Below are positions 563 through 41,913 of a stretch of 43,344 nt of DNA, in pieces; position 1 is the first letter of the stretch; each line of letters starts with the position of its first letter. Source of the DNA: a virus; IMG/VR virus record IMGVR_UViG_3300029448_000097, positions 1 to 43,344 of that record; one strand, written 5' to 3'. The notes under the pieces are model-generated. The model was not told where the DNA came from and made no database searches. It worked only from the letters and a program-made list of their open reading frames with translations. The position numbers and the translations under genes are program-made.

Positions 563-3500
563 TTATTTTATTTTTAGCTTTTTAATTTTTAATTTTTTAA
601 TTTTTGTAGGTTGTAACTTGTTTTTCTTTTTTATTAATCTTGTATTATCTTCTTCTATTTTTAAAGTCCATCCGTCCCAACCTAATAATAATGCTAATTT
701 CTGCCATAATTCAGTTTCTGAATCAACAATTCCTTTTCCTTGCTCATACAATCTCATTGCTTGATCAAGAGGTATGTTAGCTGTAGCTGATATGAATCTT
801 GCAGCTGCCATTGTTGCGGGATTATCTAAACTAAGTCCTGCTTCTTTTATTTCATCCATGTCATAATCGAATACAGAAAGTGCTTGTCTTATTTGTGTTA
901 CCTTTCTGTCTACAGGAGGCATAAAATCAAACAATTTCCATGCTGCTTCTCCAAATTTAGGCCTTGGCCTATTTGCTCTTCTTGCTATATCAACCGCAAC
1001 ATTTTTAGCCATTAAAAATACATTGCCATATACACCTGTACCTCTAATAATTGAATCCGCCATACCTTCAGCGGTTTTTATAACTCTATCTCTTTCTTTT
1101 TCATCTTCTTCTTCTTCTCCAAATCCCATTGCAAATAATGCTTGCTGCATTGCGTTGAATATAAAGTTTTGAACAAAACTATAATATATAAGCTTTGACC
1201 AATTAGTTAGAGGATCACCGCGCCCGTCTCGTATATCTTGTGCAGCCCTTTTCATAAGTCTAGCATACTGCATAGGTGTATTAGCAAAAGCTAAAACAAC
1301 TCTACCCAAATTACTTGCTTGTTGCATAGATATTTTATCAGGTCTACTAGATTGTTGTGTTTCTTCAGCTATTTCTCTAAAATCCTCAAAGGCTCTTTCA
1401 AAAGCGGTGTCTTGCTCTAATCCTTTATTAGTATACGTATTTGTTCTATTTCTAATAAAACTTGCCCCTCCTAATGCAATTGCAAAACTATCTGCATATC
1501 TTGTTAAAACAAAACCTTTACTTAATAATAAACTTATAACACCACGTACCCCTCCTTTTTCAGCCTGTTCTACAAGTTCAGATTCGTTAATATTTATTTT
1601 CAAACCACCTCTTCTTTGAACCAAATAGTCTGAATTAAATAATCTCATAAAATCTCCCCAAAATTGCTGTTGATTAGAAAAAGCTTTACCAGCTTGCAAT
1701 AAATTATTATCACTCCAGTTTATAAAGTTTATAGTTGATATTGTTTGCAGAACAGCAGATTTTCTATTTAAGAACATAATAGTACCAACCGCGTCATTAA
1801 GCCAATCCAACATAACATTAACTTGTTTGTTATTGCTAGGCTTTCTATTTCTACCAGTTTTCATTCTACGAAGACTATCTTCTAATGCTTCTCTATAATT
1901 TCTACCGAATAAGGCTTCAAGTTTATTTAAATTTTCTTCTGAAAATATTGTATCAACATTTTTTTGCCATTGTTGGAGGTATTTTGCTCTTTTTGTTGTA
2001 TTTATACTTTGTTTTAAATCTGTTGATATAGTTCCAGCCTCCCAGTTATTGTCAGGCTTTATATAACCATCAGCTTTAGTAATTAATATTAAATTATCTG
2101 CAAAATCCTTAAAAGTTTTATCTTTTTTAATTAAGTTAATTAAACTTGCCTCTTCTTCTTTATTCAACCCTGGAATTTTCATTCCTTGTTTATTCCATAT
2201 GTAAACTCTAACAGCATCTCCCATTGTAAAATCACCATCTAATACTTTTTGTTGTAAAGGCGATTGCGCGAATATACCAGCTTTTTTAGGCAATTTAGGT
2301 AGTCTTGATTTTAATTCTTTAAAATCAGCCATCATTGACACTCTTTCTCTTTCAATATTCGCCATTGCTCTACCAAAAGGTCTAATTAAATTAATTCTTA
2401 CCCACTCTATAGCTTGATCGCCTTTAAATCCTTTAGGTAAAAACGCATATATTAGCCCTAAAAAGTCTTCTGCCCCAGGCGGTATAAATAAATTATATCT
2501 ACCTTTATTTTTACCTCTTCTTCTAGCTCTTACTGCAGAATATTTAGTAGTTGATAATATACCTGATTTATCTTCTAATATTGAATTAAATTCTAAATCT
2601 AAATTAGCTTCTTTACTGGGTAAGGTTCTAGGCGTACCATCTTTTTTTATGTTAAATTGTATTGAAAATGATTTTCCTTGTAATGTTTTATAGTTTTTTA
2701 ATGCAACCCCACCGTCAATTTTTGCAACGGCACTATTAAAATGTCTTCTTGTCCAACTGTCTTTCCATAAATTCCAGTTTCTACCCATGCCAAATTTATA
2801 AAATTTAGTTTTACCTTCATTGTCTATATATGTAGCTGTATCAACTTTGTCAGCATCTTTTTTCGACATCCCTATTAATACATAATTTTCTAAAACTTTA
2901 TCTAATAATTTTGGAAACGGTACTTCTTTTTTATTAATCCCGCTTAATAATTCTTTCCAAGCTCTGAAACTCTGCATTGCATGCTCCATTATCATTTGTT
3001 CATTATTTGCAGCCGCTACTACGTCAAATCCTGCAAGTTTAGCCATTCTTCTATGTAAATGTGATTTATCTTTATAGGAATTAACCATAAAGTGTATCAT
3101 AGTTAGAAGTCTTTCTTTTTTCTGAGCCTGTGTAATATTAGGTTCATTTATAAATTCATTAATAGCTAACCATAAATGTATACCCGAGTTGGTATATCTG
3201 TCAGTAGCGTCTATTAACCATTTTAAACTTTTAGTTTTAAGATTTTTTTGACTAATGGGCGCGCCTTTATAATAATTTTTTTCAGCATCCTCACGTACTT
3301 GCTTTCTTGTTGCTGATTTACCATAAGAAAAATTCTTTCTACCAACCCAATTTTTAGAACCTGCTAATAATTTTTGTTTAATTTCTTGAATTTGTTGCTT
3401 ACTAATATAACCACCCATTTCTAACCCACTAGTAACAATGCCAATATTTAATAAGCCTGGATATTTATCAAGATATGGTAAAAATTCAATTATTCCATCT

Positions 3501-6500
3501 GCATATCTTGTAGTGTTATCAGTAACATTATAATAAATATCTTGTAAACCCATTGAAAAAGCAAATTGCTTACTAGCTAGGGTTCTTTCTATTTTTCTAG
3601 CCGCTGTTGCTTGGTCTTCGGTAGATAATGGCGATTGCTTTATTGCTGTCGGAGATAAATTGAATGCAATTTCTTTACCAAATTCCCCAAAAAGTTTATT
3701 TCTTCTTGCTCTTATAGTAGAATTGGGCTTCTTTTCACCATAACTATAATATTCTTTTAAAGTTTTTAATGATGGTTTTAATCTATCATATAAATCAACA
3801 CCTTGCGCTTCATTTTCAACAAAAGCATTTTTTTCATCTCTTGCTTTTCTAATCTCTTCTTGTGTTGTTAATCTTTTATTTAACTTAGCAAAGTTTTTGT
3901 TTTCTAATTTTCTTTCTGCTTGGTATAAATATTGTATTGATAATAACTTTTTCTTAGGGTCAAAAAGTTTATCTATATATTTGTCAAAAAACTTTTCAAA
4001 ATTACCAGCCGCTTTTCTTATTTTAGGCATTACTGCATTTTCAAACAAATTTTTAATATTGTTTCTAAAATCAGCATCGCTGGGGTCAAAAGCTTGGTCT
4101 TCACCAAATATTTCATCAACAAAATCTTGTAAATCTTTTATATCATCTTCTGTGAGTATATCAATTTCATCTTCCATTTTAGGATTAGAAGTATTTTCTA
4201 TGTTCTCACTAAGTATTTTAGCATCTATCATAGATTCTACATCTATTGAAGTTTCATCTAAAATATCAATTGTAGTGCCCGCGTCTGTTTCAATAGATTG
4301 CGCTTTTGGTTTCTTTACATATTCTAATTTAACATCTTGAAATGCTCTAAATGCAATACCACCTAACCCCTTGCTTTCTTTTTTACCATAAATATAACTA
4401 AATACACTTCTTTTATTTCCTTCTAATGTTGGATTAAAGTTTTTAAATACTCTTTCTGTAATTCTTTCTCTTACCTTTCTTTTAATATCTTCTTGTACCT
4501 CAGGTGTTAAACTACCAGTGTTTTCATCTCTTTGTATTATGCTATTTATAACTGGGTCTATAATAAGATTGACCTCTATTTCTGTGTATATACCTGCTCT
4601 AGCAACGTCACTGGTTTTAAAATCATCTTGTGTTTTTATATCTTCAGTTATATATTGGTCTAAAGCATTTTGACTAGCTTTTATTTGTTCAGGTGTTAAC
4701 TGTACTTCTTTAGATGGTTTAGATTTTTCTTCAATATCAACTTTACCGGCTTTTGTTACAGTTTTTGCAATATCGTCAGCGGCTTCTAATACTGTTTTTG
4801 TAGATAAAGGTTTAACACCTGTAAAACTATTATATCTTTTTATTAATTCTAAAGCATTTTCTCCACTAATTTCAAATGGCAAATTCTTTATATTTTTAGA
4901 ATAAGTTTTTGCAAAAGCCTCACCAAATTTATTAAACATGTTAGCTTGTTCAATATTCTCTAATGCTGCTTGATTAGCTAAAACATCAGATAATCCTGAT
5001 AAATATTCATCTACAATATCATTATTTTTAAGATCAAATTTACCATATACAGATAATCTTTGTTTTAATAATTTATATGCAGCTACCATTTTAGGATCTG
5101 TTGAATTTGCAAAATCTGCATCTAAAGCTTGTATTATAGCTGTTTTTTCATTTCTTGATAATGATTCAAATATAAAGTGCATTACCTCATGGTGTACAAC
5201 ATTACCAGAAGTGCTTTTTCCATTGTTAGTTTTAAATATATTGTTGTCAACATTTTCTTCAACAAATAAAGCTAAATCACCTTTCATAGCTCCAGATGTA
5301 TACATACGCATACCTGATTTATTTACGGTGCCCTCCAGCATGTCAATAATATTTTCGTCGTTTAAAAGGTCAGGTCTATTTTTTTTAAGCCATGTTTTTA
5401 ACTCGGCTCTAGTTTTACGCATTATACCTTGTTTACCCGCAAACACTCCAGTTTTGTCCGCGTTTATATATGATAATAAAGTTTTACCTGTTGTATGAAA
5501 ATATTCTAGAAGTCTTGTATCAATTAATTGATTATCATAACTTTCAATTCTTTGTTTTTCATTTTCAATTTTAGCTTCAATTGAAATACTGTTGTTTGTT
5601 TTAAATTCTTTTTCTAAACCAGCAAGATTAGATTGTGCATCTGCTTTTTCAATTTCTAAATCAAACATTTTTTTCCTACCTTCATAAGATAAATATTTAT
5701 AAGTAGAATTATTTGCTACATTTTCAGCAACATCTATATTTCTTAATATTTGATCTTTTTCAGATTGAGTTCTATTACTTTTCTTTACCTCTACTTTTAA
5801 CGCGTTTGCTATTGCTCTTAAACTTTTAGGATTTCTTAATGCTGTTAATTCAGCTATTCCTTCTCTAACGGTCATGCTCGTGCCCGTTATACTTACCTGT
5901 GTACCACTGGTGCCTAATATTGTTTGAGCTGTTGTTTCTGCAATTAATTTTGCAGTTATAGGGTTATCTAACGCTAATGCTGAATTTATTTCTTGTCCAT
6001 TTTCTGTAACAAGTTCCGCTAATTGGGAATATCCAGCGCCAACTAAAAAATCTTTTGCATCTTGGTTAACTTTACCTTTTAATATACCCCTAAGAGCTGT
6101 TTTAGGTACAAATTTAGTTGCTTTACCTATTAAAAAAAGATTACTTGCGTAATCCATAGCTGCATTTTGTATTCCTACTCTATTAGCTTCATTAAATGCA
6201 TCTACAGTTTTACCATCTTGAACAGCATTTAATACAGCATCAGCTTGTTGTTCTTTTGGTAAGTTTTGAAAGGCTTCATATGTTAATCCCATTTCTTCAG
6301 CTGCAACTCTGTTAATTAATTCTGTTGCAACAGCCCCACCTTCTTGTGTGTATGTTGTAAATCCAAAACTAACTAATGCAGAAAACATTTGTGGTATTTG
6401 TTCTGCAATTACCCCTGTTGTTTTATCAAAAGTTAAATTAAAATCATCCCATAATTCATTATCCCCATCATCTTCAAATATATTTATACTTTCATATTTG

Positions 6501-7033
6501 TTTAAATACTCTTGCATTTCTTTAGATTCAATAAAATTTTCTCTAAATATTTTACTATCTTTTTCAATTAAGCCTTCATAATACTTTAAAGCATTTTCTC
6601 TATCTACATTTTCACCACCTACTGTGTAGCCTTCTTTCACAGAATATCTACCGCCTACAAAAAAATTATTTATACTATCTGGAGTATTTTTAATCTTTCT
6701 TATCTGTGTTCTATTATCTTCAATTCTTCCCGCAGCGCTGTCTCTCAAATAATCATCAGAAACACTTGAGCCAATTTTTTTAAAAGCATTTACAAATCTT
6801 CTGCCCAACGTGGGGTTAATTTTTTCTTCTTTTGTAGGAGTTAGTTCAAGTGCTTTATTATAAAGAAATCTTTTTGAATTTTCAGATGGTAACGCCCCAG
6901 TATATTTTGTATATAAGGCGTCTATTGCTTTAGTGGGGTCCTGGGTTAGTAGAAAAGAAATTTGTTTAGTTCTCAATTCTTCCCCCATATCAGCATCGAA
7001 TTTTTGAAGTAATGCTTGGTATAGTTCTTCCAT
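563..7033 (-). CDS. giant ejection (internal virion) protein with HExxH zincin motif, 2156 aa
   Basis: Very large multidomain protein at the end of the virion operon, in the slot that gp16 holds in T7. Seen: an N-terminal helical region, a hydrophobic Ala/Gly/Thr-rich patch around residues 340-390, and VVHHEVMHFIF with HExxH at residues 615-619 followed by helical sequence containing DEYLSGLSD, a candidate third-ligand Glu. An acidic Asp/Glu-rich linker follows (about 930-1000). A long C-terminal region resembles the terminal part of large phage polyvalent or ejection proteins (FANTPMQYARLMKRA, hydrophobic GGASFI and NFIFNAMQQALFAMGFG segments). It ends in a low-complexity Lys/Ile/Leu tail. 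Known of the family: such proteins are injected with the DNA and often carry enzymatic domains. Inferred: it enters the host, and the zincin may cleave a host or virion target. No lysozyme or transglycosylase motif was recognised. Confidence 0.8.
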   Translation of the reverse strand: MEELYQALLQKFDADMGEELRTKQISFLLTQDPTKAIDALYTKYTGALPSENSKRFLYNKALELTPTKEEKINPTLGRRFVNAFKKIGSSVSDDYLRDSAAGRIEDNRTQIRKIKNTPDSINNFFVGGRYSVKEGYTVGGENVDRENALKYYEGLIEKDSKIFRENFIESKEMQEYLNKYESINIFEDDGDNELWDDFNLTFDKTTGVIAEQIPQMFSALVSFGFTTYTQEGGAVATELINRVAAEEMGLTYEAFQNLPKEQQADAVLNAVQDGKTVDAFNEANRVGIQNAAMDYASNLFLIGKATKFVPKTALRGILKGKVNQDAKDFLVGAGYSQLAELVTENGQEINSALALDNPITAKLIAETTAQTILGTSGTQVSITGTSMTVREGIAELTALRNPKSLRAIANALKVEVKKSNRTQSEKDQILRNIDVAENVANNSTYKYLSYEGRKKMFDLEIEKADAQSNLAGLEKEFKTNNSISIEAKIENEKQRIESYDNQLIDTRLLEYFHTTGKTLLSYINADKTGVFAGKQGIMRKTRAELKTWLKKNRPDLLNDENIIDMLEGTVNKSGMRMYTSGAMKGDLALFVEENVDNNIFKTNNGKSTSGNVVHHEVMHFIFESLSRNEKTAIIQALDADFANSTDPKMVAAYKLLKQRLSVYGKFDLKNNDIVDEYLSGLSDVLANQAALENIEQANMFNKFGEAFAKTYSKNIKNLPFEISGENALELIKRYNSFTGVKPLSTKTVLEAADDIAKTVTKAGKVDIEEKSKPSKEVQLTPEQIKASQNALDQYITEDIKTQDDFKTSDVARAGIYTEIEVNLIIDPVINSIIQRDENTGSLTPEVQEDIKRKVRERITERVFKNFNPTLEGNKRSVFSYIYGKKESKGLGGIAFRAFQDVKLEYVKKPKAQSIETDAGTTIDILDETSIDVESMIDAKILSENIENTSNPKMEDEIDILTEDDIKDLQDFVDEIFGEDQAFDPSDADFRNNIKNLFENAVMPKIRKAAGNFEKFFDKYIDKLFDPKKKLLSIQYLYQAERKLENKNFAKLNKRLTTQEEIRKARDEKNAFVENEAQGVDLYDRLKPSLKTLKEYYSYGEKKPNSTIRARRNKLFGEFGKEIAFNLSPTAIKQSPLSTEDQATAARKIERTLASKQFAFSMGLQDIYYNVTDNTTRYADGIIEFLPYLDKYPGLLNIGIVTSGLEMGGYISKQQIQEIKQKLLAGSKNWVGRKNFSYGKSATRKQVREDAEKNYYKGAPISQKNLKTKSLKWLIDATDRYTNSGIHLWLAINEFINEPNITQAQKKERLLTMIHFMVNSYKDKSHLHRRMAKLAGFDVVAAANNEQMIMEHAMQSFRAWKELLSGINKKEVPFPKLLDKVLENYVLIGMSKKDADKVDTATYIDNEGKTKFYKFGMGRNWNLWKDSWTRRHFNSAVAKIDGGVALKNYKTLQGKSFSIQFNIKKDGTPRTLPSKEANLDLEFNSILEDKSGILSTTKYSAVRARRRGKNKGRYNLFIPPGAEDFLGLIYAFLPKGFKGDQAIEWVRINLIRPFGRAMANIERERVSMMADFKELKSRLPKLPKKAGIFAQSPLQQKVLDGDFTMGDAVRVYIWNKQGMKIPGLNKEEEASLINLIKKDKTFKDFADNLILITKADGYIKPDNNWEAGTISTDLKQSINTTKRAKYLQQWQKNVDTIFSEENLNKLEALFGRNYREALEDSLRRMKTGRNRKPSNNKQVNVMLDWLNDAVGTIMFLNRKSAVLQTISTINFINWSDNNLLQAGKAFSNQQQFWGDFMRLFNSDYLVQRRGGLKININESELVEQAEKGGVRGVISLLLSKGFVLTRYADSFAIALGGASFIRNRTNTYTNKGLEQDTAFERAFEDFREIAEETQQSSRPDKISMQQASNLGRVVLAFANTPMQYARLMKRAAQDIRDGRGDPLTNWSKLIYYSFVQNFIFNAMQQALFAMGFGEEEEDEKERDRVIKTAEGMADSIIRGTGVYGNVFLMAKNVAVDIARRANRPRPKFGEAAWKLFDFMPPVDRKVTQIRQALSVFDYDMDEIKEAGLSLDNPATMAAARFISATANIPLDQAMRLYEQGKGIVDSETELWQKLALLLGWDGWTLKIEEDNTRLIKKKNKLQPTKIKKLKIKKLKIK

Positions 7034-8563
7034 CTAGTTATTATTTCCTTCGATGTTATTTAATCCGTTAATTATGTCTTGTGTAACATTTATTTCTGGT
7101 AAACTTTCTAATAAATTATCAAATGTTTTTTGGCCATCAAATTGTTCTGTTTTAGTATTAAACACGGGTGGCACTTTTTTTCCATCTGGTAACACAATGT
7201 CTCCAAACGCACCATCTTTTGCATTCATTATATAATAATTTATAACCTCTGTATCTAATCCAGCTGTTGTTGCATAAAGCCTAAATAAATCTTCTTGATT
7301 ACTTTGAGGAATAGATGTTTGATCATAAAATACGCCTATTTGATCACCACCATATGTTTCATTAAATAATTTCATTTTTTCTTCATTAGGTAATTCTCGG
7401 TATGCGCTTGATGTCATATCTACAGTTTTGGTATCTGTTTGTTGTTGTGCGGAATCCCAAGCTTTAAATAATTGATCTTTATCCATAAATTTACTAGCGT
7501 TTTTAATATCTAGTCTTTGTAAAGACTTAACTCTTTCTTGCGCATTCAAAGGCTGAGTTGCAAAATTAAGCGCATTTTGGATTGTAGGCATTGCTAATTT
7601 AATTTTTTGTTGCATGCTGGCTGTAAACTCACTTTCGCCGCCGCCAGGATTGTATGTGCCATATCCAACTGAATTTTGCTCAATCAACCCTTTCATTATT
7701 TTGTCAACTATAACAGGCTTGAAATTAATAGGATCCTCCTCGTATCTTGCCCTTTCTTCATCACTAAAAACATCTTTAAATAAATCATCATATAGAATTG
7801 ATTTAATTCTATCGTCACCACCATTATCCAGTTCAATTATTAATTTTCTTTTTAAAGAATTGACTAATCCACTAAATTTATTATCTTTTAAATTAACACC
7901 CTCTATGCCATCTTTAATTACAGATTTATTTAAATCATCTAAATATATCGAAAATTCGTCGTCAGTTTCAAACCAATCAAAATCTTTTTTAGTAAATGAA
8001 TAATTTTTACCTTCATGTGTTGTGTTGTAAGTAGGATTACCAAAATTATCATAAGTCATTGTGTAATCTAATTCATCTGGTAATAATATATTATCTAATG
8101 CACCTTTTTTACCGGCATCGTAACCTTTAGATATTCTCAAATGGTTTTCAGAATATTCTTTTCTTTTAGCTTGAACCCAAAGTAAGTTGTCATTTACATT
8201 TGAATATGAAGCGGTTATATTATTTAATTCATTTTGTAAAGTTAAATAATCAGAAGTGCCTGCCTGTGTTTCTGTCAGTAGATTACCTATTTCAAAAGCT
8301 CTTTTCTTTTTATCAAAAGCCCATGGGGTTAAACTTTCTCTTTGTATACCATCTAATTTTGAAAAATTAATTTCTTCTGGAAATTTATCAAGTATACCTC
8401 TAGCCCTAGTATCGGCCGCTTCTCGCGCTTTTCTATTTCCTTCAATTTGTTTTATTAAGTTATCAGTAGTTCTTTTTATACTTTTATCTATAGTGTCTAC
8501 TAGACCAGTATTAAAACCACCCGCCGCGAGTCTTGCTCCTAATATTAAGTTTTTATCTGCCAT
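7034..8563 (-). CDS. putative internal virion / ejection protein, 509 aa
   Basis: No enzymatic motif was found. The N-terminus is small-residue rich (MADKNLILGARLAAGGFNTG), followed by a long, charged, mainly helical sequence with Lys/Arg/Glu heptad-like stretches (about residues 25-160), a central acidic part and a polar C-terminus ending NNIEGNNN. Its place between a 234-aa Ala/Gln-rich protein and the 2156-aa giant mirrors T7 gp14-gp15-gp16, so I infer a gp15-like core or ejection protein. The stop abuts the giant gene's start (7034/7033) and its own start lies one base past the 234-aa gene's stop, which suggests coupled translation. It could instead be an unrelated structural protein; the position is the main argument. 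Confidence 0.6.
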   Translation of the reverse strand: MADKNLILGARLAAGGFNTGLVDTIDKSIKRTTDNLIKQIEGNRKAREAADTRARGILDKFPEEINFSKLDGIQRESLTPWAFDKKKRAFEIGNLLTETQAGTSDYLTLQNELNNITASYSNVNDNLLWVQAKRKEYSENHLRISKGYDAGKKGALDNILLPDELDYTMTYDNFGNPTYNTTHEGKNYSFTKKDFDWFETDDEFSIYLDDLNKSVIKDGIEGVNLKDNKFSGLVNSLKRKLIIELDNGGDDRIKSILYDDLFKDVFSDEERARYEEDPINFKPVIVDKIMKGLIEQNSVGYGTYNPGGGESEFTASMQQKIKLAMPTIQNALNFATQPLNAQERVKSLQRLDIKNASKFMDKDQLFKAWDSAQQQTDTKTVDMTSSAYRELPNEEKMKLFNETYGGDQIGVFYDQTSIPQSNQEDLFRLYATTAGLDTEVINYYIMNAKDGAFGDIVLPDGKKVPPVFNTKTEQFDGQKTFDNLLESLPEINVTQDIINGLNNIEGNNN

Positions 8564-8564
8564 A

Positions 8565-9269
8565 TTATGTTTTAGGTTTTAAAATTCCTGATGCTGCTAC
8601 GCCTGCTGCGCCGCCGGCCATATCTGTTAATCCGCCAACTAATTGATTTGTTGCATCTTTTCTTGCTTGGTCCGCCGCTCCTTTTCTTTGCTGAGCCATT
8701 CCAAGTAAAGTGCTTTGTTTTTCATAAGCCATTTTTTGGGACTGTGATTCTCCGCCTGCAATAGCCATTTGTCTTGACTGTTCACCTTGAGCACCTAATT
8801 GTGCATTTCTTTGTTCTTGTTGGGCTATGCTTACTGATGCCGCTTGTGCTTGTTGGTTTTGACTATTTGCCATTGCCTGTGCTAATGCGGCAACCCCTCC
8901 GCCTCCTGCTGAGGCAGCCATACTACTCATAATATTTGCAGCTCCTTGTGCACTTTGTTGTGCCGCAAAATCTGCTGCTTGAGTATTAACAGTTAAATTT
9001 GTATAAGGATTAGTTATGTTTTTATATGGATTAGATGTATCTAAATCTCTAAATGCTTGTTTTTCTTGTTTTAGTTCTTTAGCCGCTCTTCTTTGTTCAC
9101 GTCTTCTTTTACCACCTCCAAATAAACTAGCACCAAATTTTATAAGTCCACCTACTGCTTGACCAGCTGCTTGTATACCTGCTGCTGCTACCGCCGGCGC
9201 AACCGCCCAATTTACTCCTCCTGTAGGCGCTTCTATTATTAATTTTGATATTTCTACTATACTTTCCAT
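8565..9269 (-). CDS. putative internal virion protein (gp14-like), 234 aa
   Basis: Ala/Gln/Gly-rich protein with a hydrophobic N-terminal segment (about residues 18-50: AVAPAVAAAGIQAAGQAVGG and LIKFGASLFGGG), a basic RRREQRRAAKELKQEK helix, the motif NPYKNITNPYTNLTVNTQAA, then a long Ala/Gln/Ser helical region and a Gly/Ala-rich end (LVGGLTDMAGGAAGVAASG). An amphipathic or membrane-active N-terminus plus a low-complexity helical body is typical of small podovirus ejection proteins such as T7 gp14, which insert in the outer membrane during DNA entry. The NPYxNxxNPYxNLxVNTQAAxF pattern recurs in marine phage virion proteins that I have seen. Function assigned from composition and position. Confidence 0.65.
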   Translation of the reverse strand: MESIVEISKLIIEAPTGGVNWAVAPAVAAAGIQAAGQAVGGLIKFGASLFGGGKRRREQRRAAKELKQEKQAFRDLDTSNPYKNITNPYTNLTVNTQAADFAAQQSAQGAANIMSSMAASAGGGGVAALAQAMANSQNQQAQAASVSIAQQEQRNAQLGAQGEQSRQMAIAGGESQSQKMAYEKQSTLLGMAQQRKGAADQARKDATNQLVGGLTDMAGGAAGVAASGILKPKT

Positions 9270-9299: not shown

Positions 9300-12200
9300 T
9301 TAACTACTTATACTAATTTCACTTCCAACAGCATATATTTCTTTAACCGTGTTTGCTGTGTTTTGCATCTTTACGGCTGCATGGTAACCCAATAACCCGC
9401 TTGTTTCCCATCTTGCGTTTTTTGCATAAAACACAAAATATTTAGAAAATGATCCACTTATAGGTGGCACTGTTGAATATGAAGCAGTAACTGATGTGTC
9501 TGTAACTACTGTTACGGCTCCAACCGCTGTAACAACACTTCCAGTTGGATGTATAAAATATAATGTGTCACCTTTTTGCAAATCTTGAGGTACATTATTT
9601 GTAAAACTATATGTAACTGTATTTCCTGAATTATTTGTAACAGTGTTATATACGCCGATGCCTTGTACATTTAGGGCTTTTAAATCAATCGTAGATGCAG
9701 TTTCTGCTTTGCCTCTTATATAATTAAAATATTTATTTTCTTTATTAACAAATGAATCTACAGCTCCATCTTGTTGGTTGGTAGCTATACTAGGGCATGT
9801 CCACCCACTATCCCCTTCATAATTCAATGTTCTAAAATTTTTCATATTAGCAGGGGCTTCATTCAAAATAACCTCTACATATGGAGTTATTTTTGAACCA
9901 TAAAAATTACAAACACTTCCAACATGATGTTCATATATATGACCATTTTTAAAGGTAAAATATTTATTTTGTATACTTTCCGCGGCTTCAGGTATAAAGG
10001 ACTTTTTACTAGTCCATCCGTTTATTGATTCAGAAAAAGAAAGAGTGCTATTTGCATTCGTAGGATGAGTACTAATATTGTACTGATGTTTTCTAATGTC
10101 ATAAGAACCTACCATATATCCAGTATTTGCCGGTAACGCGTCTCTAAAGAAATCTTTCATTCCATAATCTGATATAGCTTCCATTCCGTCCATAGAATGT
10201 CTTACGACTACACCGTTTTTTCTATCTGTAAAATATGCTCTATGTGTATAAAAAGCAAAGCTTTCTGGATTTGTACTTATACCATAATTAGAATTATAAG
10301 GCATTGCTTGTCCTAAAACTGCTTTATTTGATGTTACGTTAACATTCCCATCAGCATTAAACAAAGCATCTTTATTAGTTAATATTTTTATAACTTTATT
10401 TTCACAATACGCAATTATATCATTATATCTTGTGTGTAATAGTTGTATACTACCATAATCAGGATTAAGCTGTTTTGTAATATTTTCAGCTATAATAAAT
10501 TGATTTAATCTATTAACATTTGTTTTTCCATTATATATTTGAGAAAATATTAAACCATTAGGAATTGATTCCTCTTGATAATTATCTTCAAATATTGTTG
10601 AAACTCTAACTCCTTTACCAACAGGAGGGGCATTAAAGTCATCTCTTATCGTAACACCCTCAACTCCATTTTCAAAGCTAATACAATTATAATATGACAA
10701 TAGGTTCTTATTACCATGATTATCAGCTATCGTCATATTTTCTTGAGTTTCATAATATAAGTCAATGTCTACATCATCCTGAGGTTCTGTTTCAAATATA
10801 GGCGGATTAGTTATATTAACTAAATCATCACTATCAATTTCATAAACAGTTATTTGCATAACATTAGTATCTCCGTCTTCACCTTGTCTTCTTAATCTTT
10901 GAGTTAAGTTTGTATCTAAACCAATACCATAAACTTTTCTAGTGCTGCCATCGTAGTTTTCATTATATGAAAACACTCTTTCAATTTTATAATAATTTGA
11001 ATCTGCCGTTGGGCCGTTATCAAATTTTAAAAAGTTACCTACTTTTAAGTTTTGTAAAAAAGGGTGAGAGCCATAACTTGAATCACTATCCCCATATGAT
11101 TTATCTGTTCTTATTGCAAAATGGTAAGGGTCATTAACAAGTACAGAACCATGTACGCCGTTTTGCCAACCCGGAGATGTCGTAGAACTTGCATTATTAT
11201 TTGGAGATGTCCACCCACCCGCTGTAGGTGCGGCCGTACGAACGCTTGAACTACTTGTATTTTCACCCGCGTTTCCACCACAAAACATATGTAATGCTCT
11301 CGGGTCATCATCTGATTGGTCTCCATCTAAAGATATTGTACTAATTGCATTTAAATTTTCTGTATTAGTTGTGCTACCTTTAAATTCAGCAATTAAATTA
11401 GTGTCTGCTTTTAATTTTAAAAAAAATCTACCTTCAAATTCAGCTTTTCCTGATTCGTCTTTTTCTTCAACGCCTATTAGTTGTACGCCTGACCTTAAAG
11501 CTGTTGTAGTAGGATTGTTAATATAATCTTCATATAAACCTATAACATCATTACCAAATTCTTCTGTAAAATGTAATTCAATATCATCGTTTCCATCAAG
11601 ATTTAATTCTCTAGATTTTACTTCATAAACTTTGCTTTGTGTATCGCCACAAACAAACCTTACTTTTTTGCCAATAGACACTGCTGTGTAAGCATCTTTT
11701 GAAACACCTCTATCAGAGCCGCCTATTGCTGCTGTACTTGCAACTTTATTTTCTCCTTTATTATGAAAATCTCTAATAGTTACTCTATTTTTATCTGGCA
11801 CTGGTGTTGAGCCAGGCTTAATAGTTAACTGGTCGTGATCTTGTTCAAAGTCTCTACTAAATGTAAATGTTGTTGGAGAATAATATTCTTTTAATGGTTT
11901 TGCTAAAAACTTTGGTGGAGTTGTAAGTTTATCTAATACTTTAAATTTATCTGTAATTTCAGATGGATCATTACCTGTTTTTTTCTTTAAAATTAATATA
12001 TCATCAACACTAACTTTATTAATTTCTGCTGATGGAAATGATACATATACATAACCTTGATCATCTTGATAAAAACTATCAGCACATAAATTGTATTGTA
12101 TAGATGAAATTTCTTTAATAAAATATCTGTAATTTGTTGCAAAAGACGGGGCTGAAGAAGTTATTTTAGCCATTAATTGCGTCATATTTTTAGCTTGCCC

Positions 12201-13739
12201 TTGTGGTATTTTTATAATACCAGTTTTATCCGTAAGAACCGGAGTTTGTCTACCGTATTGATCCATGTATGCAACACCTATTTGATAAGTCCTATTAGAC
12301 TTCATAGATTGTCTTTCATTTCTATTAGAATCAGTAGGGTCATATCTATTTCTTAAACCAATGTCAAATGTAATAGGTGTAACAGGTAAATCAAATTGAT
12401 GCGTATAATTACCATATATTAATCTATTAGCTGTTATATTTTGCGACTTTGCTTTTTTAGGCACACTGTCAAATAATCTTAGTAATTGATTTGATGGTAA
12501 TACTTTAAATATTTGTTCATCTTTTACTTCAAATGTACTAGCAATACTGTTATTTGATTGTCTTTTTATGGTATCTACAATATATACATTTGTACCTACG
12601 GATTCTTTATATATTATATCAATCTCATCAACATCTCCATGTATATTACTATTTAAATTTGTAAGTGTTAACGAGCGCAGTGTGTTTACCATTGCTTTAT
12701 TATAACCATCTTCTGCGTTATACTCAAATCCCGAACCACCCCCGACAGTTGAATCTGGTAAAAAAGCAGGATTTGAAAAAGGCGCTAAACATGAATATTG
12801 TCCGTTATTGTATTTATATCTATATGAAAATCTTGGGAACTTTAATTCAAATAAAGGGTCATCTTCTTGTAATAAACATGTATAAGCTACAGCCGCACCT
12901 CTAACTTGTTTACTTATTGTTAATATTTCAGCACCTGTAAAACTTGCACCCCCTCCGTAATTTGAAGCCATTTTTATTCTAGCTTCAGTTTTTGTTATAT
13001 CTCCGCTTCCAGCAATAAAATCAAAACTAAATACTATAACGTCATTAGCTTGATAATTAGGGTCTGCGCTAAACGTACCACTAACCGTAGTCCCAGCATC
13101 TTTTGCATTTTGTAAATCACTTCCTGAAGATGCAGCTAAGTTTATTGAACAAGTTACCGTATTACCCCCTGCGGTACCGGCCCCACCTCTTGTGGAACTG
13201 CTCATAGTTAATCCAGGCGCAGCCTGAGGGGACTTTTTAATAACGTTTATTCTTTCGGCTGTTAATCCTGTGCTTGTGCCAGCAGAACCTGAAGTTTGAC
13301 TTCTCCAATATTCAACATCAACTTGTCTTGGTTCATTTAAATTATCTGTAAAAAATAATATACCATCAATAACATTTGCTCCAGTTATAAAATTAGCAGT
13401 GTTAAAATTTAATACACTTCCACTATCAACTATTATTGTATCATAAGTATTTGAAGCATAATCCCACTCTGCTATTAAATCTTTTGCTGAAGATGTAATA
13501 AACCAATATATTTTATTATTTTCAATATCTTTTGCAGTACCAATACATTTTGCATTAGATAAGCTTATTGTATCTCTTTGAGTATTACCTAAAATACTTT
13601 TTAACGCCCCAACATCACTACCTTCTGAAAAGTCAACATCAACATTTACAGCGTCTCTATATTCACCATTAGGAATCAATCTTTCATCAAGGTCTTTATT
13701 CATTTTACCCTGTATGAAAGCATTTTTAATTTCTGGCAT
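9300..13739 (-). CDS. tail nozzle / tail tubular protein B-like, 1479 aa
   Basis: A β-rich protein beginning MPEIKNAFIQGKMNKDLDER, then LIPNGEYRDAVNVDV and SEGSDVGALKSILGN. This start is typical of phage tail-tube or nozzle proteins in the T7 gp12 slot. Further typical blocks are NKIYWFITSS, INGVIDGILFFTDNLNEPRQ-like sequence around residues 115-135 (ANVIDGILFFTDNLNEPRQV in this copy), and a TDRKNGVVVRHSMDGMEAIS block near residue 1180. It is about twice the length of T7 gp12; the extra central part (about 600-1000) is Ser/Gly/Asn-rich and probably forms surface domains. Known role of the family: a hexameric nozzle that closes the short tail and opens for DNA release. It follows two connector candidates with a 3-base gap. 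A shorter same-strand frame at 11111-11326 is a shadow. Confidence 0.75.
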   Translation of the reverse strand: MPEIKNAFIQGKMNKDLDERLIPNGEYRDAVNVDVDFSEGSDVGALKSILGNTQRDTISLSNAKCIGTAKDIENNKIYWFITSSAKDLIAEWDYASNTYDTIIVDSGSVLNFNTANFITGANVIDGILFFTDNLNEPRQVDVEYWRSQTSGSAGTSTGLTAERINVIKKSPQAAPGLTMSSSTRGGAGTAGGNTVTCSINLAASSGSDLQNAKDAGTTVSGTFSADPNYQANDVIVFSFDFIAGSGDITKTEARIKMASNYGGGASFTGAEILTISKQVRGAAVAYTCLLQEDDPLFELKFPRFSYRYKYNNGQYSCLAPFSNPAFLPDSTVGGGSGFEYNAEDGYNKAMVNTLRSLTLTNLNSNIHGDVDEIDIIYKESVGTNVYIVDTIKRQSNNSIASTFEVKDEQIFKVLPSNQLLRLFDSVPKKAKSQNITANRLIYGNYTHQFDLPVTPITFDIGLRNRYDPTDSNRNERQSMKSNRTYQIGVAYMDQYGRQTPVLTDKTGIIKIPQGQAKNMTQLMAKITSSAPSFATNYRYFIKEISSIQYNLCADSFYQDDQGYVYVSFPSAEINKVSVDDILILKKKTGNDPSEITDKFKVLDKLTTPPKFLAKPLKEYYSPTTFTFSRDFEQDHDQLTIKPGSTPVPDKNRVTIRDFHNKGENKVASTAAIGGSDRGVSKDAYTAVSIGKKVRFVCGDTQSKVYEVKSRELNLDGNDDIELHFTEEFGNDVIGLYEDYINNPTTTALRSGVQLIGVEEKDESGKAEFEGRFFLKLKADTNLIAEFKGSTTNTENLNAISTISLDGDQSDDDPRALHMFCGGNAGENTSSSSVRTAAPTAGGWTSPNNNASSTTSPGWQNGVHGSVLVNDPYHFAIRTDKSYGDSDSSYGSHPFLQNLKVGNFLKFDNGPTADSNYYKIERVFSYNENYDGSTRKVYGIGLDTNLTQRLRRQGEDGDTNVMQITVYEIDSDDLVNITNPPIFETEPQDDVDIDLYYETQENMTIADNHGNKNLLSYYNCISFENGVEGVTIRDDFNAPPVGKGVRVSTIFEDNYQEESIPNGLIFSQIYNGKTNVNRLNQFIIAENITKQLNPDYGSIQLLHTRYNDIIAYCENKVIKILTNKDALFNADGNVNVTSNKAVLGQAMPYNSNYGISTNPESFAFYTHRAYFTDRKNGVVVRHSMDGMEAISDYGMKDFFRDALPANTGYMVGSYDIRKHQYNISTHPTNANSTLSFSESINGWTSKKSFIPEAAESIQNKYFTFKNGHIYEHHVGSVCNFYGSKITPYVEVILNEAPANMKNFRTLNYEGDSGWTCPSIATNQQDGAVDSFVNKENKYFNYIRGKAETASTIDLKALNVQGIGVYNTVTNNSGNTVTYSFTNNVPQDLQKGDTLYFIHPTGSVVTAVGAVTVVTDTSVTASYSTVPPISGSFSKYFVFYAKNARWETSGLLGYHAAVKMQNTANTVKEIYAVGSEISISS

Positions 13740-19207: not shown

Positions 19208-21631
19208 TTACTTAGGTTCAAATGCACCTAAGTTAAAATTACCGCTTATTATATCGTTTCCTGCCGATTCGAAATTTTTAGGCGGTCTGCCAGATTTTCT
19301 CTGGTCGATTAATTCAGATTGTTGAGATGCTTGTATTTTTGTACGTTCATCTTTACGATCTTCTTTTTTGTTCATTGCTCCGGATTCCGCCTCAGTTTTA
19401 ACTTTTGCTAAAGCCATATTCATTTGGAATTCCATTTGCATTAGTTGTTTCTTTAATTCAGCTTCTCTGTAAAGCTTATTAGTATCTAGCTGACTTTTAG
19501 CTTGCTCTAATTGTATTTTACTTTGAGTTAATGCTTGTTGTTTTTGTACCTCTGCTTGCGCCGCAACTTGTTGAGCTTGAGCATTTGCTTGTGCTTGAGC
19601 CTGTATATTTTGTTGTTGCGTTTTTTGGTCTCTTTCTTGCTTCTTTTTTCTTCTTAATTTTAAAAGTTGATTAGCAAGCTTAACGTTTTTAATCATTCTA
19701 ATATCAATAGCATCTTCTAATTCAATATTATTTTGTGCTATTGCTACTTGAATATTATTTTCTAATAATTGTTTTTCTTCTTCGTCTGGTTCTAATTCTA
19801 AGAATATACCAAAATCATGCAAATGTAACTCTGCTAATTCTTTTAATGTACCCACATTATGAGAACCAATATTTTGAATAAATGCATTTGCTGTTGGTGA
19901 GTATTCTAAAACATCAGAAATTCTTAATGATATTTTTTCAGCCATCTCAGCAGTTAAAAATAATCCACTTTGCAATATGTGTCTTGTAGCTGTATTACTA
20001 TTTGCTGCAGCAAGTTTTTGCACACCTACTAAAGCATTCTTATCTGGAGTACTACCATCTCTTGCTTCATTCAATCCAGTAGCGTCTCTAATCATTTGCA
20101 TATAATAATTATAAGTGCTAATTAAAGCGGATAGTTTTCCTGTACCGGAATTATTGCTTATTTCTTGTATTGGAACTTTTCCTGGATTCATATCACCGTC
20201 AGATGTAAATGATCTACCTATAATACTACCAGTTTGGAAAAACATGTTCAATGCTTCTTGAGGATTGTAATTACTGCCATTACCCAAATCCACTTCTGCT
20301 AATCCATCTGCGTCAACATATACACCATCGGGAACCATTCTGGCAAGTATTTGTTGAATTTTTAAATGAGTTAACTGAATCATATCTGCAAATCCAGTAA
20401 CTCTACTAACTAAAGATTCAACTTTACCATTATATAATCTTGGAGCTACTATTGAATAGTTTAATTTAACTTTGTTTACATCGCTTTTTTCACGCAACAT
20501 ATTTTCACAAAGATTCCATTTAAGCAGCTGTTTGGCCCCTGGCAAATACACACCTTCATAAACAACTTCAATATTTTTAGCAATACGCTCAAATTTTAAG
20601 CCTTCTACTGCTGGTGGATTGAAAGCGTCTGATTTTTTAATAATTTTTTCAGCGCCAGTCGCTGTTTCTTTTACTTTATAAACCTCATTCATGTACGTTT
20701 TGTAACTAAAGTACATTAATTGAATAGAATTATTGTCCGTATTGTTAACTTGAGAATTATACTTGTTATAGCTATTGTAATCTCCATTACCTTGGCTTTG
20801 TATTTTTTTTAAATCTTCATCTGTTAAATTTGGAAATTCTTTTTTAACCTCTGATATGTTAACATTTTTAATTTCACCTACATAATATATATCATCAAAA
20901 TATGGAGAATCTGTATAAGAATAAACTATATTTGCAGGATCAACATATTCAATTTTAATTCCTTCTGATTGTGTAAAGTTATTTTTAACACAAGCCATTC
21001 CAAGAACAGCTAAATCATAATAAAATCTTTTCTTAGTTAATTCATAATTATTCTGATTAAATATAGTAGCTATAGCTTGTTCTTCTGCAATTTCAATCCC
21101 CTGTTTATAACTTAATTGCATGTGCAACTCTAGTTCTTCATTATTTTCAGGAAGCTGATCTGCTGGGGTATTATACATATTAATACCAAATTCTTTTTGA
21201 GCGTAGTCAGACAAGTCTTTTGTTTTCATATCCATAAGCATGCCTTCCATATACTGAGTTCTTTTATTAACTCCAAATGGATCCTGTGAATATGCTTTTA
21301 TATCATAAGTTCTTTCTGCAATACCATTTACAACTATATCTACAAACTTAGGTATAATAGGTACCGGTTTCCAATCTAAATTTAAATATGATAAATCGCC
21401 ATTTATAGACAATTCATCTTTATATTTTTGGATTGACTGTTCTCCTCTGGCATACAATCTTAATTTATGAAAATTATTTTGATTTTGAAAAAATCTATTT
21501 ACTCCATGAGATTTTTTAAACCATTCATTCTCTATAGCCCTTGCAACTTCTAAGCCATATTCCATACTCAACTTTACATCGTCTCCTACGGTTTGACTTG
21601 GAAAATGTGATTTCATAACTGATTCAGCCAT
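19208..21631 (-). CDS. portal protein, 807 aa
   Basis: Dodecameric portal through which DNA is packaged and released, inferred from its place just after terL and before the scaffold and from its large size. Visible: NFHKLRLYARGEQSIQKYK near residue 50, WKPVPIIPKFVDIVVNGIAE (about 85-105), a middle with KIEYVDPANIVYSYTDSPYF, RVTGFADMIQLTHLKIQQIL (a long stem helix), and NYYMQMIRDATGLNEARDGS then NALVGVQKLAA in the crown side. The C-terminal ~120 residues form an Ala/Gln coiled-coil (QQNIQAQAQANAQAQQVAAQ, then KIQLEQAKSQLDTNKLYREA), an extension reminiscent of portal barrels. The start is one base after the terL stop. Opposite-strand frames are shadows. Confidence 0.8.
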   Translation of the reverse strand: MAESVMKSHFPSQTVGDDVKLSMEYGLEVARAIENEWFKKSHGVNRFFQNQNNFHKLRLYARGEQSIQKYKDELSINGDLSYLNLDWKPVPIIPKFVDIVVNGIAERTYDIKAYSQDPFGVNKRTQYMEGMLMDMKTKDLSDYAQKEFGINMYNTPADQLPENNEELELHMQLSYKQGIEIAEEQAIATIFNQNNYELTKKRFYYDLAVLGMACVKNNFTQSEGIKIEYVDPANIVYSYTDSPYFDDIYYVGEIKNVNISEVKKEFPNLTDEDLKKIQSQGNGDYNSYNKYNSQVNNTDNNSIQLMYFSYKTYMNEVYKVKETATGAEKIIKKSDAFNPPAVEGLKFERIAKNIEVVYEGVYLPGAKQLLKWNLCENMLREKSDVNKVKLNYSIVAPRLYNGKVESLVSRVTGFADMIQLTHLKIQQILARMVPDGVYVDADGLAEVDLGNGSNYNPQEALNMFFQTGSIIGRSFTSDGDMNPGKVPIQEISNNSGTGKLSALISTYNYYMQMIRDATGLNEARDGSTPDKNALVGVQKLAAANSNTATRHILQSGLFLTAEMAEKISLRISDVLEYSPTANAFIQNIGSHNVGTLKELAELHLHDFGIFLELEPDEEEKQLLENNIQVAIAQNNIELEDAIDIRMIKNVKLANQLLKLRRKKKQERDQKTQQQNIQAQAQANAQAQQVAAQAEVQKQQALTQSKIQLEQAKSQLDTNKLYREAELKKQLMQMEFQMNMALAKVKTEAESGAMNKKEDRKDERTKIQASQQSELIDQRKSGRPPKNFESAGNDIISGNFNLGAFEPK

Positions 21632-21632: not shown

Positions 21633-23846
21633 CTATTGTTTTATTATTTTTGATAAACTTCCTTTATTTTCGTATTTTGAAAAATTAATATTTACTTTTT
21701 GCTTTACTTTTTCAGCGTGTGGTTTATATTTGTTTTTATTACAAGCCATAATAGCTAAACCAGAACTGATTGCGGCATCAAATTTTGTTCTTTTATTTAT
21801 ATCAAACTTAGCCCAATCATTAAGCGTTCTGTTGAAATATAAATCACCATATGAACCACCTGATAAAATGCCAACATAATCATTAATATATGTTTCAATT
21901 GCAGCAGCGTGTGCTTGTCTTATATCTTCGCTTGAGTTAGGTATACCACCTATTTCTTTTTCGGTTACTGATAATTTATTTCTTGCTTTGTCTGGTCTAT
22001 TCATAGAATAACCTCTGTAACCCCTTCTTTTTAAATAATATAATAACCTAGGCTTGTTATTTTCTGCCAATAAAGGCATGCCGTAAAATACTAATGCCAT
22101 TAACATATCTTCAAAAAACATTTCAGCTGTTGGAGGCCTAGCTATATATTCTAAAAAAAACATATTAGCAGGAGCGTTTTCCATACTAAACTTCGTTAAC
22201 CCGTGTAGGGATCCTTTAGAGCCTTGCCCATCTGTTGTTCCTGATATATCATAACTATCACAACCAAAAGCACCCATGTGTTCATTGCCTGGATATTTTA
22301 TACCGTTTTTAATTATAATATTATTTTGTAATTTTACATTCGGAACCCAGCTGACTTTAAACCTTCCGTTAAGATTTGGTGTAAACTGGACCTTTGTGTC
22401 TTTAATTCCATTTTTCCACGTAAAGCTGCCAACGGTAACTTGTGACAGATTTGCGACTTCATCGTTGTAATCAATTTGTTCGTAAATTTTTGCTAAATTA
22501 AATATACTATTTTTTGTTTCGTCTCTAAACGCATGCTCTTCAGTACGCGGAAACTGTCTATAGAATTCATTTAAAGCATCTTGATCACCCTTTAAGCCTT
22601 CAACTTCGTTTTCCCAGTGTTCAATAACCCCGATGTCAATTTCATCTCCGTGTACATCTTTAACAATTGTGTCTGGTGTTTCAAATACAGGTATTCCATA
22701 AGAATCGATGAATCCCTCGAAGTTCCATTCCATAGGAATGAACAAAGAATATAATCCCGAGCGAGTCTGTCCATTGCGGTTTCTTTTGGTAACATCTGAG
22801 TCATGGTATAATTTTTTAAAGTTTTCACCTCCTTTATCTGATGAGTTACTTGTTGAACCCATCATACATTTTCCGATTATTCTACTTCCTAATCTTAATG
22901 TGGTTTTCGTGACCCTCCAGTTGTTGAGGATGTTCTCGGGGCGCTCCCATTTGCCGGCTTCATCATGTACGAGGAGGGCGAGTTTCTCCCCATCGTAGGA
23001 GTTGTCACCGGTGTTCTTCCAATCGATGGTCGTGTCCAGTCCCTGGATGTCCTCCATGGCTTCGTTGGCGGTAAGCTTACGTCTGGTAAATTTACTGGCT
23101 GGGACACGGTAGGCAAGTTCGGTTTTGGGGCGGTCCATTCCGTCCTGGATGGGTTTGAAAAAGAATGGATAATTAACTGATATGGGTACCACCTTATCTG
23201 TGAACATCTTCTTTGCATCAGCACCGGACTTGGATAATATACCATACCTACTGTCACTTGATATGGTTGCCAAGTTAACAGTCTCTCCTGATGCCATGAA
23301 AGAAAACCCGGAACGCCTGTTCTTAAGGTAACACATCCCATAGGATCGTGTATCTGCTTTACAAGCTTCCCAGAAAATAAAGAATAATCTATTTGCTTCT
23401 CGAAACTCTGGCTTCCCGATGTCAATTTTAGTCCACTGCAGGTACATATAGTGAGTGCCACTAATATAAGTAGGAATGCCTTTGTTATAAAACCAAAAAC
23501 CCTCTTCTCTTTTAGTAAACTCTGAATCAATATATGCATGCCAATTATTTTTAAAATCTGATGGCAAATCTCGCCAATCAAATATTGTTTTTATTTTATC
23601 TAATTCTTTTGGATATTTTTGAACCTCCCATTTGTTATTGCCTTTAAAAACATTTTTAGGTTGCTTAGGTAAAGCTATTTTAAGGTTTTGTATCTCGTAT
23701 ACCTCCCCTATCACACCTGTTTTGCTGATAACAACAACGTCATGCTCTTTATTGTATCCGTATTTCCACTTTTTTGCTTTATTAAGCCTTTTAATCGTAT
23801 TGATTTTTATAGGCTCTATAACGCTATATAATGATTGTTTATACAT
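21633..23846 (-). CDS. terL: terminase large subunit, 737 aa
   Basis: DNA-packaging motor: ATPase domain plus RNase H-like nuclease. Seen: a Walker A-like segment YLKNRRSGFSFMAS with RRSGFS at residues 177-182 (the usual Lys before Ser is Phe here), Walker B LALLVHDEAG with D295-E296, a coupling-like GSTSN motif after it, and a nuclease strand GAFGCDSYD with D530. The N-terminal ~110 residues are an extra region before the ATPase core. The start overlaps the upstream stop as TAATG. Bases 22921-23160, within the ATPase domain, are clearly GC-rich (131 of 240 by hand count, about 55%), unlike the AT-rich flanks; see findings. Two same-strand frames inside (22592-22828, 22895-23581) and several opposite-strand ones are shadows favoured by that composition. 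Confidence 0.9.
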   Translation of the reverse strand: MYKQSLYSVIEPIKINTIKRLNKAKKWKYGYNKEHDVVVISKTGVIGEVYEIQNLKIALPKQPKNVFKGNNKWEVQKYPKELDKIKTIFDWRDLPSDFKNNWHAYIDSEFTKREEGFWFYNKGIPTYISGTHYMYLQWTKIDIGKPEFREANRLFFIFWEACKADTRSYGMCYLKNRRSGFSFMASGETVNLATISSDSRYGILSKSGADAKKMFTDKVVPISVNYPFFFKPIQDGMDRPKTELAYRVPASKFTRRKLTANEAMEDIQGLDTTIDWKNTGDNSYDGEKLALLVHDEAGKWERPENILNNWRVTKTTLRLGSRIIGKCMMGSTSNSSDKGGENFKKLYHDSDVTKRNRNGQTRSGLYSLFIPMEWNFEGFIDSYGIPVFETPDTIVKDVHGDEIDIGVIEHWENEVEGLKGDQDALNEFYRQFPRTEEHAFRDETKNSIFNLAKIYEQIDYNDEVANLSQVTVGSFTWKNGIKDTKVQFTPNLNGRFKVSWVPNVKLQNNIIIKNGIKYPGNEHMGAFGCDSYDISGTTDGQGSKGSLHGLTKFSMENAPANMFFLEYIARPPTAEMFFEDMLMALVFYGMPLLAENNKPRLLYYLKRRGYRGYSMNRPDKARNKLSVTEKEIGGIPNSSEDIRQAHAAAIETYINDYVGILSGGSYGDLYFNRTLNDWAKFDINKRTKFDAAISSGLAIMACNKNKYKPHAEKVKQKVNINFSKYENKGSLSKIIKQ

Positions 23847-40817: not shown

Positions 40818-41219
40818 TTAACTTAACTTTGTAGGTTTAAATCCCCTTGTATTATACACAGGTTTTTCAATTGGGCTTTGTTCATGCCCATTAGGTATAA
40901 CTTTACCTTTAACTAATATCCCATTTCCAACTCTTTTGTAAGTTTGTATTGGTTTACTTTTATCTGGTTGATGATAAACGTTATTACTATCAAACCAAGC
41001 CTCACCCTTTCTCATTTGCATAATATGCTCTTTTTCGTGTTCAACGGCTTTTTTCTTTTGATAGTTATTAAGTTTATTGTTTATATGAATTGTTCTATCC
41101 ATATTAGCATAACCCCAGGAACCACCTAAATTTTCTTCAAATACTGGTACATCAGGTGTTGAAAGTTCTTTATTCAAACCCAACATTTCCGATATGTTAG
41201 TTTTCATTTTGTAGCCCAT
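40818..41219 (-). CDS. small protein with HExxH (zincin-like) motif, 133 aa
   Basis: KKKAVEHEKEHIMQMRKGEA places HEKEH at residues 61-65 in a helical context, a match to the zinc-binding HExxH signature of metallopeptidases. Flanking text: GYANMDRTIHINNKLNNYQK upstream (β-strand then helix, as in minimal zincins) and GEAWFDSNNVYHQPDKSKPI downstream. A third ligand is not certain; E72 in KGEAWFD is a candidate. Known of the family: minimal zincins cut peptides, and some are inactive structural domains. It overlaps the upstream winged-helix gene as TAATG. Possible roles include processing of virion proteins or host proteins; the motif alone does not choose. Confidence 0.5.
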   Translation of the reverse strand: MGYKMKTNISEMLGLNKELSTPDVPVFEENLGGSWGYANMDRTIHINNKLNNYQKKKAVEHEKEHIMQMRKGEAWFDSNNVYHQPDKSKPIQTYKRVGNGILVKGKVIPNGHEQSPIEKPVYNTRGFKPTKLS

Positions 41220-41659: not shown

Positions 41660-41913
41660 TCAACTAAAACTATATCACCAAGCTTTAAAACATAATATAG
41701 TTGATCTTTCCATTCAATACCATGCCCTGCTTGTTTATCGTATCTAACTATATCATCTTTTTTTAGTACATCAGCCATTGGACCTGCTGATATTACTTTT
41801 CCTTTTAAATATCTTACATCTTTATTCTGGTCCTCTGTAAGTTCTAAGCCACCTACTTTCTTCGGCGCTTCTTTTATTTTTTCAACGACTACGTAGTAAT
41901 TAATTGCCTGCAT
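41656..41913 (-). CDS. groES: phage GroES co-chaperonin, 85 aa
   Basis: Caps the GroEL chamber during ATP-driven folding. It has the GroES layout: YYVVVEKIKEAPKKVGGLEL (strand and mobile loop, GGLEL at 21-25), RYLKGKVISAG, KKDDIVRYDKQAGHGIEWKD and YVLKLGDIVLVE. Compared with the usual loop tripeptide (IVL in E. coli), the middle residue is Glu (L-E-L), which is unusual. It is shorter than E. coli GroES (97 aa) in the roof and C-terminal regions. Its start lies 14 bases inside groEL, so the order is groEL then groES, the reverse of most bacteria. Likely co-translated with the phage GroEL. Confidence 0.85.
   Translation of the reverse strand: MQAINYYVVVEKIKEAPKKVGGLELTEDQNKDVRYLKGKVISAGPMADVLKKDDIVRYDKQAGHGIEWKDQLYYVLKLGDIVLVE

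Follow-up and report, generated by a model that had tools for sequence, protein, structure and literature searches.

The minus strand of a marine phage, IMG/VR virus record IMGVR_UViG_3300029448_000097 (positions 1 to 43,344; 'the window' below is this whole 43,344-nucleotide stretch) encodes a giant ejection-type protein in which, we are confident, a HExxH motif and a downstream glutamate (E676) belong to an embedded zincin-type metallopeptidase (MPTase) domain. The gene is an open reading frame (ORF) of 2156 amino acids (aa; P0001), running from ATG to stop at 563..7033 (minus), with relatives at 64 IMG/VR loci. An ejection protein of this length with an embedded HExxH zincin had been proposed in a preliminary description of this DNA, which left the strand unstated; ORF and motif are confirmed here, and a zincin-like domain in a giant that closes an ejection-protein-like block is supported. 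With good, if lesser, confidence we predict the domain to be an active peptidase, binding zinc and cutting protein. We would describe the giant as an ejected, polyvalent-type virion protein, combining a conserved scaffold with a fast-changing zincin half; judged from sequence comparison, this mosaic of fixed C-terminal scaffold and exchanged zincin half appears unusual.

The giant contains a single HExxH (H615, E616 and H619), located within a zincin-like core of approximate boundaries (residues ~530–700; 4934..5446, minus) that we place from the elements of a structural model and from substitution ratios over residues 550–720. The motif itself, HEVMH, spans residues 615–619 (5177..5191, minus); the preliminary description had identified it correctly but numbered the longer string HHEVMH as 615–619, where it in fact occupies 614–619. 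The possible third glutamate it pointed to, in DEYLSGLSD, is E676 (5006..5008, minus), the presumed third zinc ligand. Our IMG/VR scan recovered the 64 loci with relatives, 56 of them complete at the N-terminus ('N-complete'), and exactly one HExxH is found in 51 of these 56, at 22–41% of protein length; conservation of the motif in homologues, on which the earlier proposal had been staked, therefore holds. Chance occurrence is ruled out by this conservation together with shuffling, which gives a mean of 0.002 HExxH per shuffled protein (57 proteins) and none in 200 shuffles of P0001, a protein with 10 histidines. In an alignment of 50 copies (A1; 20% mean column identity), no column is invariant except H, E, H and E676, with 50–68 residues between the first histidine and the glutamate; as the rows of A1 were picked for carrying HExxH, it is E676, the only other invariant column, that constitutes the independent observation. 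The same four residues are also invariant among 19 cluster representatives sharing <30% identity. Bacterial and archaeal assemblies yielded 12 further loci, in contigs of metagenome-assembled genomes (MAGs) that we take to be phage contigs: HExxH is present in all five N-complete loci and in two fragments that reach the site (the remaining five are fragments without it), and the seven MAG-derived copies added to the alignment all keep the four residues, glutamate in the E676 column included. The zincin region is under purifying selection, with ratios of non-synonymous to synonymous substitution (dN/dS) for residues 550–720 of 0.060 and 0.077 against the near-copies L001 and L002; values for the C-terminal scaffold are similar (0.056–0.077), those for residues 1–200 are 0.24–0.29, and a comparison with L077 gives 0.234 for residues 550–720 and 0.256 for the whole protein.

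At the other end of the chain, the last 650 residues form a conserved helical scaffold (residues 1473–2130; 644..2617, minus), with 63% mean column identity over 52 rows. Five of the 22 pairs with C-terminal identity of at least 0.90, drawn from three clades, nevertheless have zincin regions only 16–30% identical (the table of such swaps covers 44 of the 50 A1 rows and that of upstream genes 42; the compared pairs are not independent). For L016/L024, the DNA of the gene in tail-nozzle position is 85.8% identical, whilst the adjoining upstream gene and the N-terminal half of the giant through HExxH are unalignable; alignment of the DNA resumes 172 and 140 residues past the motif, at 91.5% identity, with a second unalignable block ahead of the constant C-terminal end. 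Breakpoints lie at similar places in L051/L053 and L034/L053, the upstream side of L034 (a fragment) not being visible, and in L023/L043 high identity is limited to the final ~1050 residues of what aligns. Sixteen pairs combine a C-terminal identity of at least 0.75 with a zincin identity below 0.40, and in every one of them the gene upstream of the giant is no more than 20% identical, so that enzyme, N-terminal half and upstream partner appear to travel together in the compared pairs; a change confined to the upstream gene occurs too, in L018/L026 (upstream 0.25, zincin 0.71). Within the three swap clades L034, L051, L053, L023, L043, L016 and L024 retain HExxH, whereas L061 and L025, from two of the three, have lost it. 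What the mosaic reveals is a slot that mostly goes on holding a zincin even as one sequence takes the place of another; near-identical scaffolds bearing different or broken zincins offer natural comparison sets. Separately, residues 900–1100 of the window giant (~3734–4336) have a dS to L001 and L002 of 0.11–0.13, compared to 0.30–0.34 for the whole protein, perhaps marking a recent recombination tract.

From its place in the gene order, the giant probably enters the cell with the DNA as an ejection protein. Our tentative proposal, for which we would claim a little less than an even chance, is that the main target of the zincin lies amongst the ejection proteins themselves. The C-terminal helical scaffold would presumably serve docking and channel formation or DNA passage, and the zincin would make limited cuts in ejection proteins, either inside the head or during exit; candidate sites lie within the giant, in its N-terminal half or its linker, or in the gp15-like partner with which it is co-inherited, and the outcome would be an ejection machine that can be threaded, assembled or released. 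We favour such processing for two reasons. In the compared pairs, exchange of the zincin also involves the N-terminal half that carries it and the upstream partner, an arrangement by which enzyme and substrate would stay together; and DdrB of phage P1 offers a precedent: it is cut before packaging, with its own MPTase the proposed agent (PMC5512222).

An AlphaFold2 model built from A1 has a mean predicted local distance difference test (pLDDT) score of 68.5 and a predicted template modelling score of 0.67; the core reaches a pLDDT near 80, and model residues 131–139, just ahead of the motif, fall below 50. In this predicted structure a strand, a helix and two strands precede the HExxH helix, followed by a later helix bearing E676; an order in agreement with the MPTase core described for polyvalent proteins (PMC5512222). 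A model of the C-terminal scaffold has a mean pLDDT of 63.2, and its fold listing, in which all rows have Z <5, includes the ejectosome entries 7k5c_A (Z 4.4 over 72 residues) and 8vb2_A (Z 3.7 over 182 residues).

Several results weigh against this picture, in part or as a whole. Foldseek searches with the zincin model give no match at E ≤0.001 in either PDB or BFVD. The best neighbours found by VIA-align are indeed chains of zincin fold, as the preliminary description would have it, occupying ranks 1–20 (11 anthrax lethal factor (LF), eight Pro-Pro endopeptidase (PPEP/Zmp1) and one edema factor chain), but with weak Z scores of 4.3–6.0 and root-mean-square deviations of 4.6–7.3; with every Z below 8 the fold is supported, not proven. 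An unrelated chain follows directly at Z 4.0, with PprI, ECE-1, collagenase and neprilysin ranking lower, and for 10 of the 11 LF chains the aligned stretch lies before LF residue 260, outside the catalytic part. This N-terminal region of LF is zincin-like in fold but lacks an active site. The authors of the polyvalent-protein study likewise reached the LF endopeptidase starting from an N4-type domain (PMC5512222). Family searches leave a similar gap: Pfam, PHROG and NCBIfam scans of P0001 give no convincing family match for the zincin, PDB profile searches with alignments A1, A6 and A5 no useful match, and tblastn of P0001 finds nothing at E ≤0.01 among 50,697 phage records. Member-by-member scans of A1 return scattered weak matches, to Peptidase_M78 in 2/50 (best E 0.002) and to the metallo-protease family phrog_87 in 1/50 (E 1.6e-4).

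To these must be added the five N-complete relatives that lack HExxH (L019, L025, L030, L054 and L061), which are isolated tips on the C-terminal tree (51 rows) and represent five changes. With filters off, four of them match the zincin profile: L061 (4e-14), L019 (3.3e-9), L025 (2.2e-8) and L030 (2.9e-9), all E-values for very small sets; the site reads EELSH in L019 and QEVGH in L030, and L054 gives no match under the same settings. As a degenerate domain is kept in four of the five, catalysis would seem dispensable there, with the fold retained without it; the motif, then, looks ancestral, yet some lineages seem to do without it, and the fold can apparently outlive it. HExxH is likewise absent from the syntenic giants of phages phi38:1, phi13:2 and Panino. 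The virion RNA polymerase (vRNAP) of phage N4, which bears an MPTase, is packaged unprocessed (PMC5512222), arguing against in-virion processing as a general rule, and the exchange pattern fits a host-directed effector as well, so that we prefer processing of ejection proteins over cleavage of host proteins only narrowly. As a separate observation, residues ~562–683 of the L054 giant, at approximately the zincin position, weakly match a sigma-factor-like family (phrog_1025, E 0.0043).

Such an effector, a delivered protease cutting a host envelope, defence or regulatory protein, with N-terminal exchange adjusting it to different hosts, is the nearest competitor to ejection-protein processing, and we consider it possible, if rather doubtful. 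Exchange between near-identical scaffolds in those five pairs of three clades, where the aligned copies retain HExxH, is what would be expected of it, and it is an option named for polyvalent MPTases (PMC5512222); against this, the domain is exchanged together with an upstream structural gene, which points to the ejection machine, the motif has been lost in 5/56 relatives, and the host substrate is only hypothetical. The available text of PMC5512222 takes no side on whether injected zincins act on the host or on the ejection machine.

That the fold is kept merely as a building block, its catalysis no longer needed, would account for the recognisable degenerate domains of L019, L025, L030 and L061. 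We think it distinctly unlikely, given that H, E, H and the glutamate are the most conserved residues in a domain of 20% mean identity and that HExxH is kept in 51/56. Least probable of all, and by a long way, is a peptidoglycan peptidase replacing the wall enzyme, a transglycosylase, that T7 gp16 has at its N-terminus (PMC8954989). Neither P0001 nor the 18 scanned relatives have a transglycosylase match, as a replacement would imply, but they also lack any match to a peptidoglycan-peptidase family, and fast exchange is ill-suited to a uniform substrate. The structural neighbours of zincin fold are protein-cutting enzymes, which likewise counts against a role on the wall. Processing of ejection proteins stays our first, provisional choice.

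Amongst known systems, the closest in kind are the polyvalent MPTase proteins, and the large injected phage proteins with proteases to which the preliminary description referred correspond to this published class (PMC5512222). As predicted for the window giant, a huge phage protein is thought to enter with the DNA, and three strands, a HEXXH helix and a further helix with the glutamate form a zincin used as a recurrent module, zincins being the most frequent domain of polyvalent proteins (PMC5512222). Polyvalent proteins combine several activities per chain, whereas the zincin is the only domain recognised in the window giant, where Pfam and PHROG scans show no second enzymatic domain; none of the curated MPTase families matches the window copy, and LPD14 is matched by one of the 18 scanned relatives (E 0.0021). 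The vRNAP of N4 (gp50; Schitoviridae) resembles the giant in being the last, giant member of an ejection-protein block and in its embedded HExxH and later glutamate, with H, E, H and Glu invariant in 16 aligned rows; a zincin in this injected protein is already known (PMC12633501). Aligning A1 with the N4 domain by hhalign places the motifs in register (E 0.0015, 56 columns), at a probability of only 16%; a control with the C-terminal domain comes out at 0.19. The vRNAP domains PF21894, PF21769 and PF21867, found in N4 gp50, are absent from P0001 (E ≤1) and from the 18 relatives (E ≤0.01), and membership of the N4 vRNAP family is therefore rejected. T7 gp16 shares with the giant its position after gp14- and gp15-like genes, and to this extent the preliminary assignment to the T7 gp16 slot stands; membership of that family does not, there being no Pfam transglycosylase in P0001 or the 18 relatives (E ≤0.01) and no sequence match in the phage records.

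The earlier idea of a family specific to these podoviruses has to be abandoned, given the weak alignment with the N4 vRNAP domain and a profile match in gp18 of the elemovirus Flavobacterium phage vB_FspP_elemoE_6-9C. This protein (3694 aa) occupies the equivalent gene position in a phage whose TerL is 45% identical, and with filters off the A1 profile finds its residues 1452–1672 (E 4e-12, for a set of 10 named-phage proteins); under default filters none of the ten is matched, gp18 included, and the C-terminal scaffold profile, in a further difference from the window giant, finds no match in gp18. At E ≤0.1 Gundel_74 is the only one of the ten that the scaffold profile matches (E 3.9e-12); Gundel_74 has one HExxH and, with A1 and filters off, a 12-bit domain without a significant whole-protein score, whilst the Manatee Spring giant has two HExxH. 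As a cultured Flavobacterium phage protein, elemovirus gp18 offers an entry point at the bench.

The second variable block of the family contains a HAD-like domain in many members. The motif DFDDT[LIV]A is present in 41/65 members (40/56 N-complete; for example at residue 1968 of L063), with LTAR and FxDD motifs downstream in most of these, and lies 207–210 residues ahead of the scaffold mark in 27/29 among the members listed; the window copy lacks it. Our assignment rests on these motifs, on phrog_415 (polynucleotide kinase; 3/18 members at E ≤0.001, L063 E 2.4e-5) and on a single PF00702 match amongst the 18 scanned members (E 0.0055), a PDB profile search on the block finding nothing at E ≤0.01. 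Joint counts for the 56 N-complete relatives are 38 with both HExxH and the HAD-like motif, 13 with HExxH only, two with the HAD-like motif only and three with neither. A more ambitious scheme, which we regard as unlikely though conceivable, would have flavobacterial podoviruses carry two exchangeable cassettes on a fixed ejection scaffold, one comprising the gp15-like gene and the zincin half, the other a HAD-like phosphatase or alternative; recombination would swap the cassettes, zincin mostly for zincin, with each phage delivering a host-tuned protease at entry.

Our literature searches found no publication on this giant-protein family; the polyvalent class and ejection-protein mosaicism are known, domain swapping among ejection proteins being a reported theme (PMC8954989). 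A zincin in an injected giant has precedent (PMC5512222, in the available text), and we did not find the fixed scaffold with two exchange sites, or the pairing of zincin and HAD-like domains, in the literature searched; 'phosphatase' is absent from the available main text of PMC5512222, where 'had' occurs as a verb only. A search combining crAss-like, zincin and virion gave no match, 'protease', 'peptidase' and 'zinc' are absent from the available main text of the crAss001 atlas (PMC10172136), and virion proteomics of these giants is found neither in the literature searched nor in the available portions of PMC13288928, PMC8776804 and PMC7077304.

The structural gene block of the window terminates in the giant, which is preceded by a 1479-aa gene in tail-nozzle position (9300..13739, minus; named by position only, with matches in 52/64 loci), a 234-aa Ala/Gln-rich gene in gp14 position (8565..9269, minus; 41/64 loci) and a 509-aa neighbour in gp15 position (7034..8563, minus). 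The last of these, co-exchanged with the zincin half in relatives, has a sequence match in only 4/64 loci; an ORF of at least 300 aa lies directly upstream of the giant in all 56 N-complete relatives. Portal (19208–21631) and TerL (21633–23846) are recognised by PHROG family matches. In tblastn, 91 phage records match the TerL (68 Flavobacterium, 15 Cellulophaga, four uncultured, two Tenacibaculum, one Maribacter and one Caudoviricetes); three of the four uncultured records are among the matches listed, all cr-type gut phages and weak. Comparable layouts ending in a giant are seen in the elemovirus (gp22 to gp18, the latter labelled 'structural protein'), in Cellulophaga phage phi38:1 (gp97 to gp101, 1691 aa) and in N4 (gp53 to gp50), the gene labels in these genomes being the depositors' own. 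Those of the Cellulophaga phages reportedly derive from published virion proteomics.

Two annotations in related phages look like misannotation: the Manatee Spring giant (L073, 741–12320, minus; 3859 aa, both its motifs HEFGH) is named 'reticulocyte binding/rhoptry protein', and the syntenic giant of Panino (L075, 2229–7718, minus) 'tRNA methyltransferase'. Elsewhere in the window, a separate 133-aa protein (40818–41219, minus; relatives in 5/64 loci) has a HExxH of its own (HEKEH) and a weak match to the metallo-protease family phrog_87 (E 0.0092). Beyond it lie GroES- and GroEL-like genes (41656–43312, minus), the former named from its sequence and from neighbours in related phages, the latter matching Pfam Cpn60_TCP1 at E 4.6e-42.

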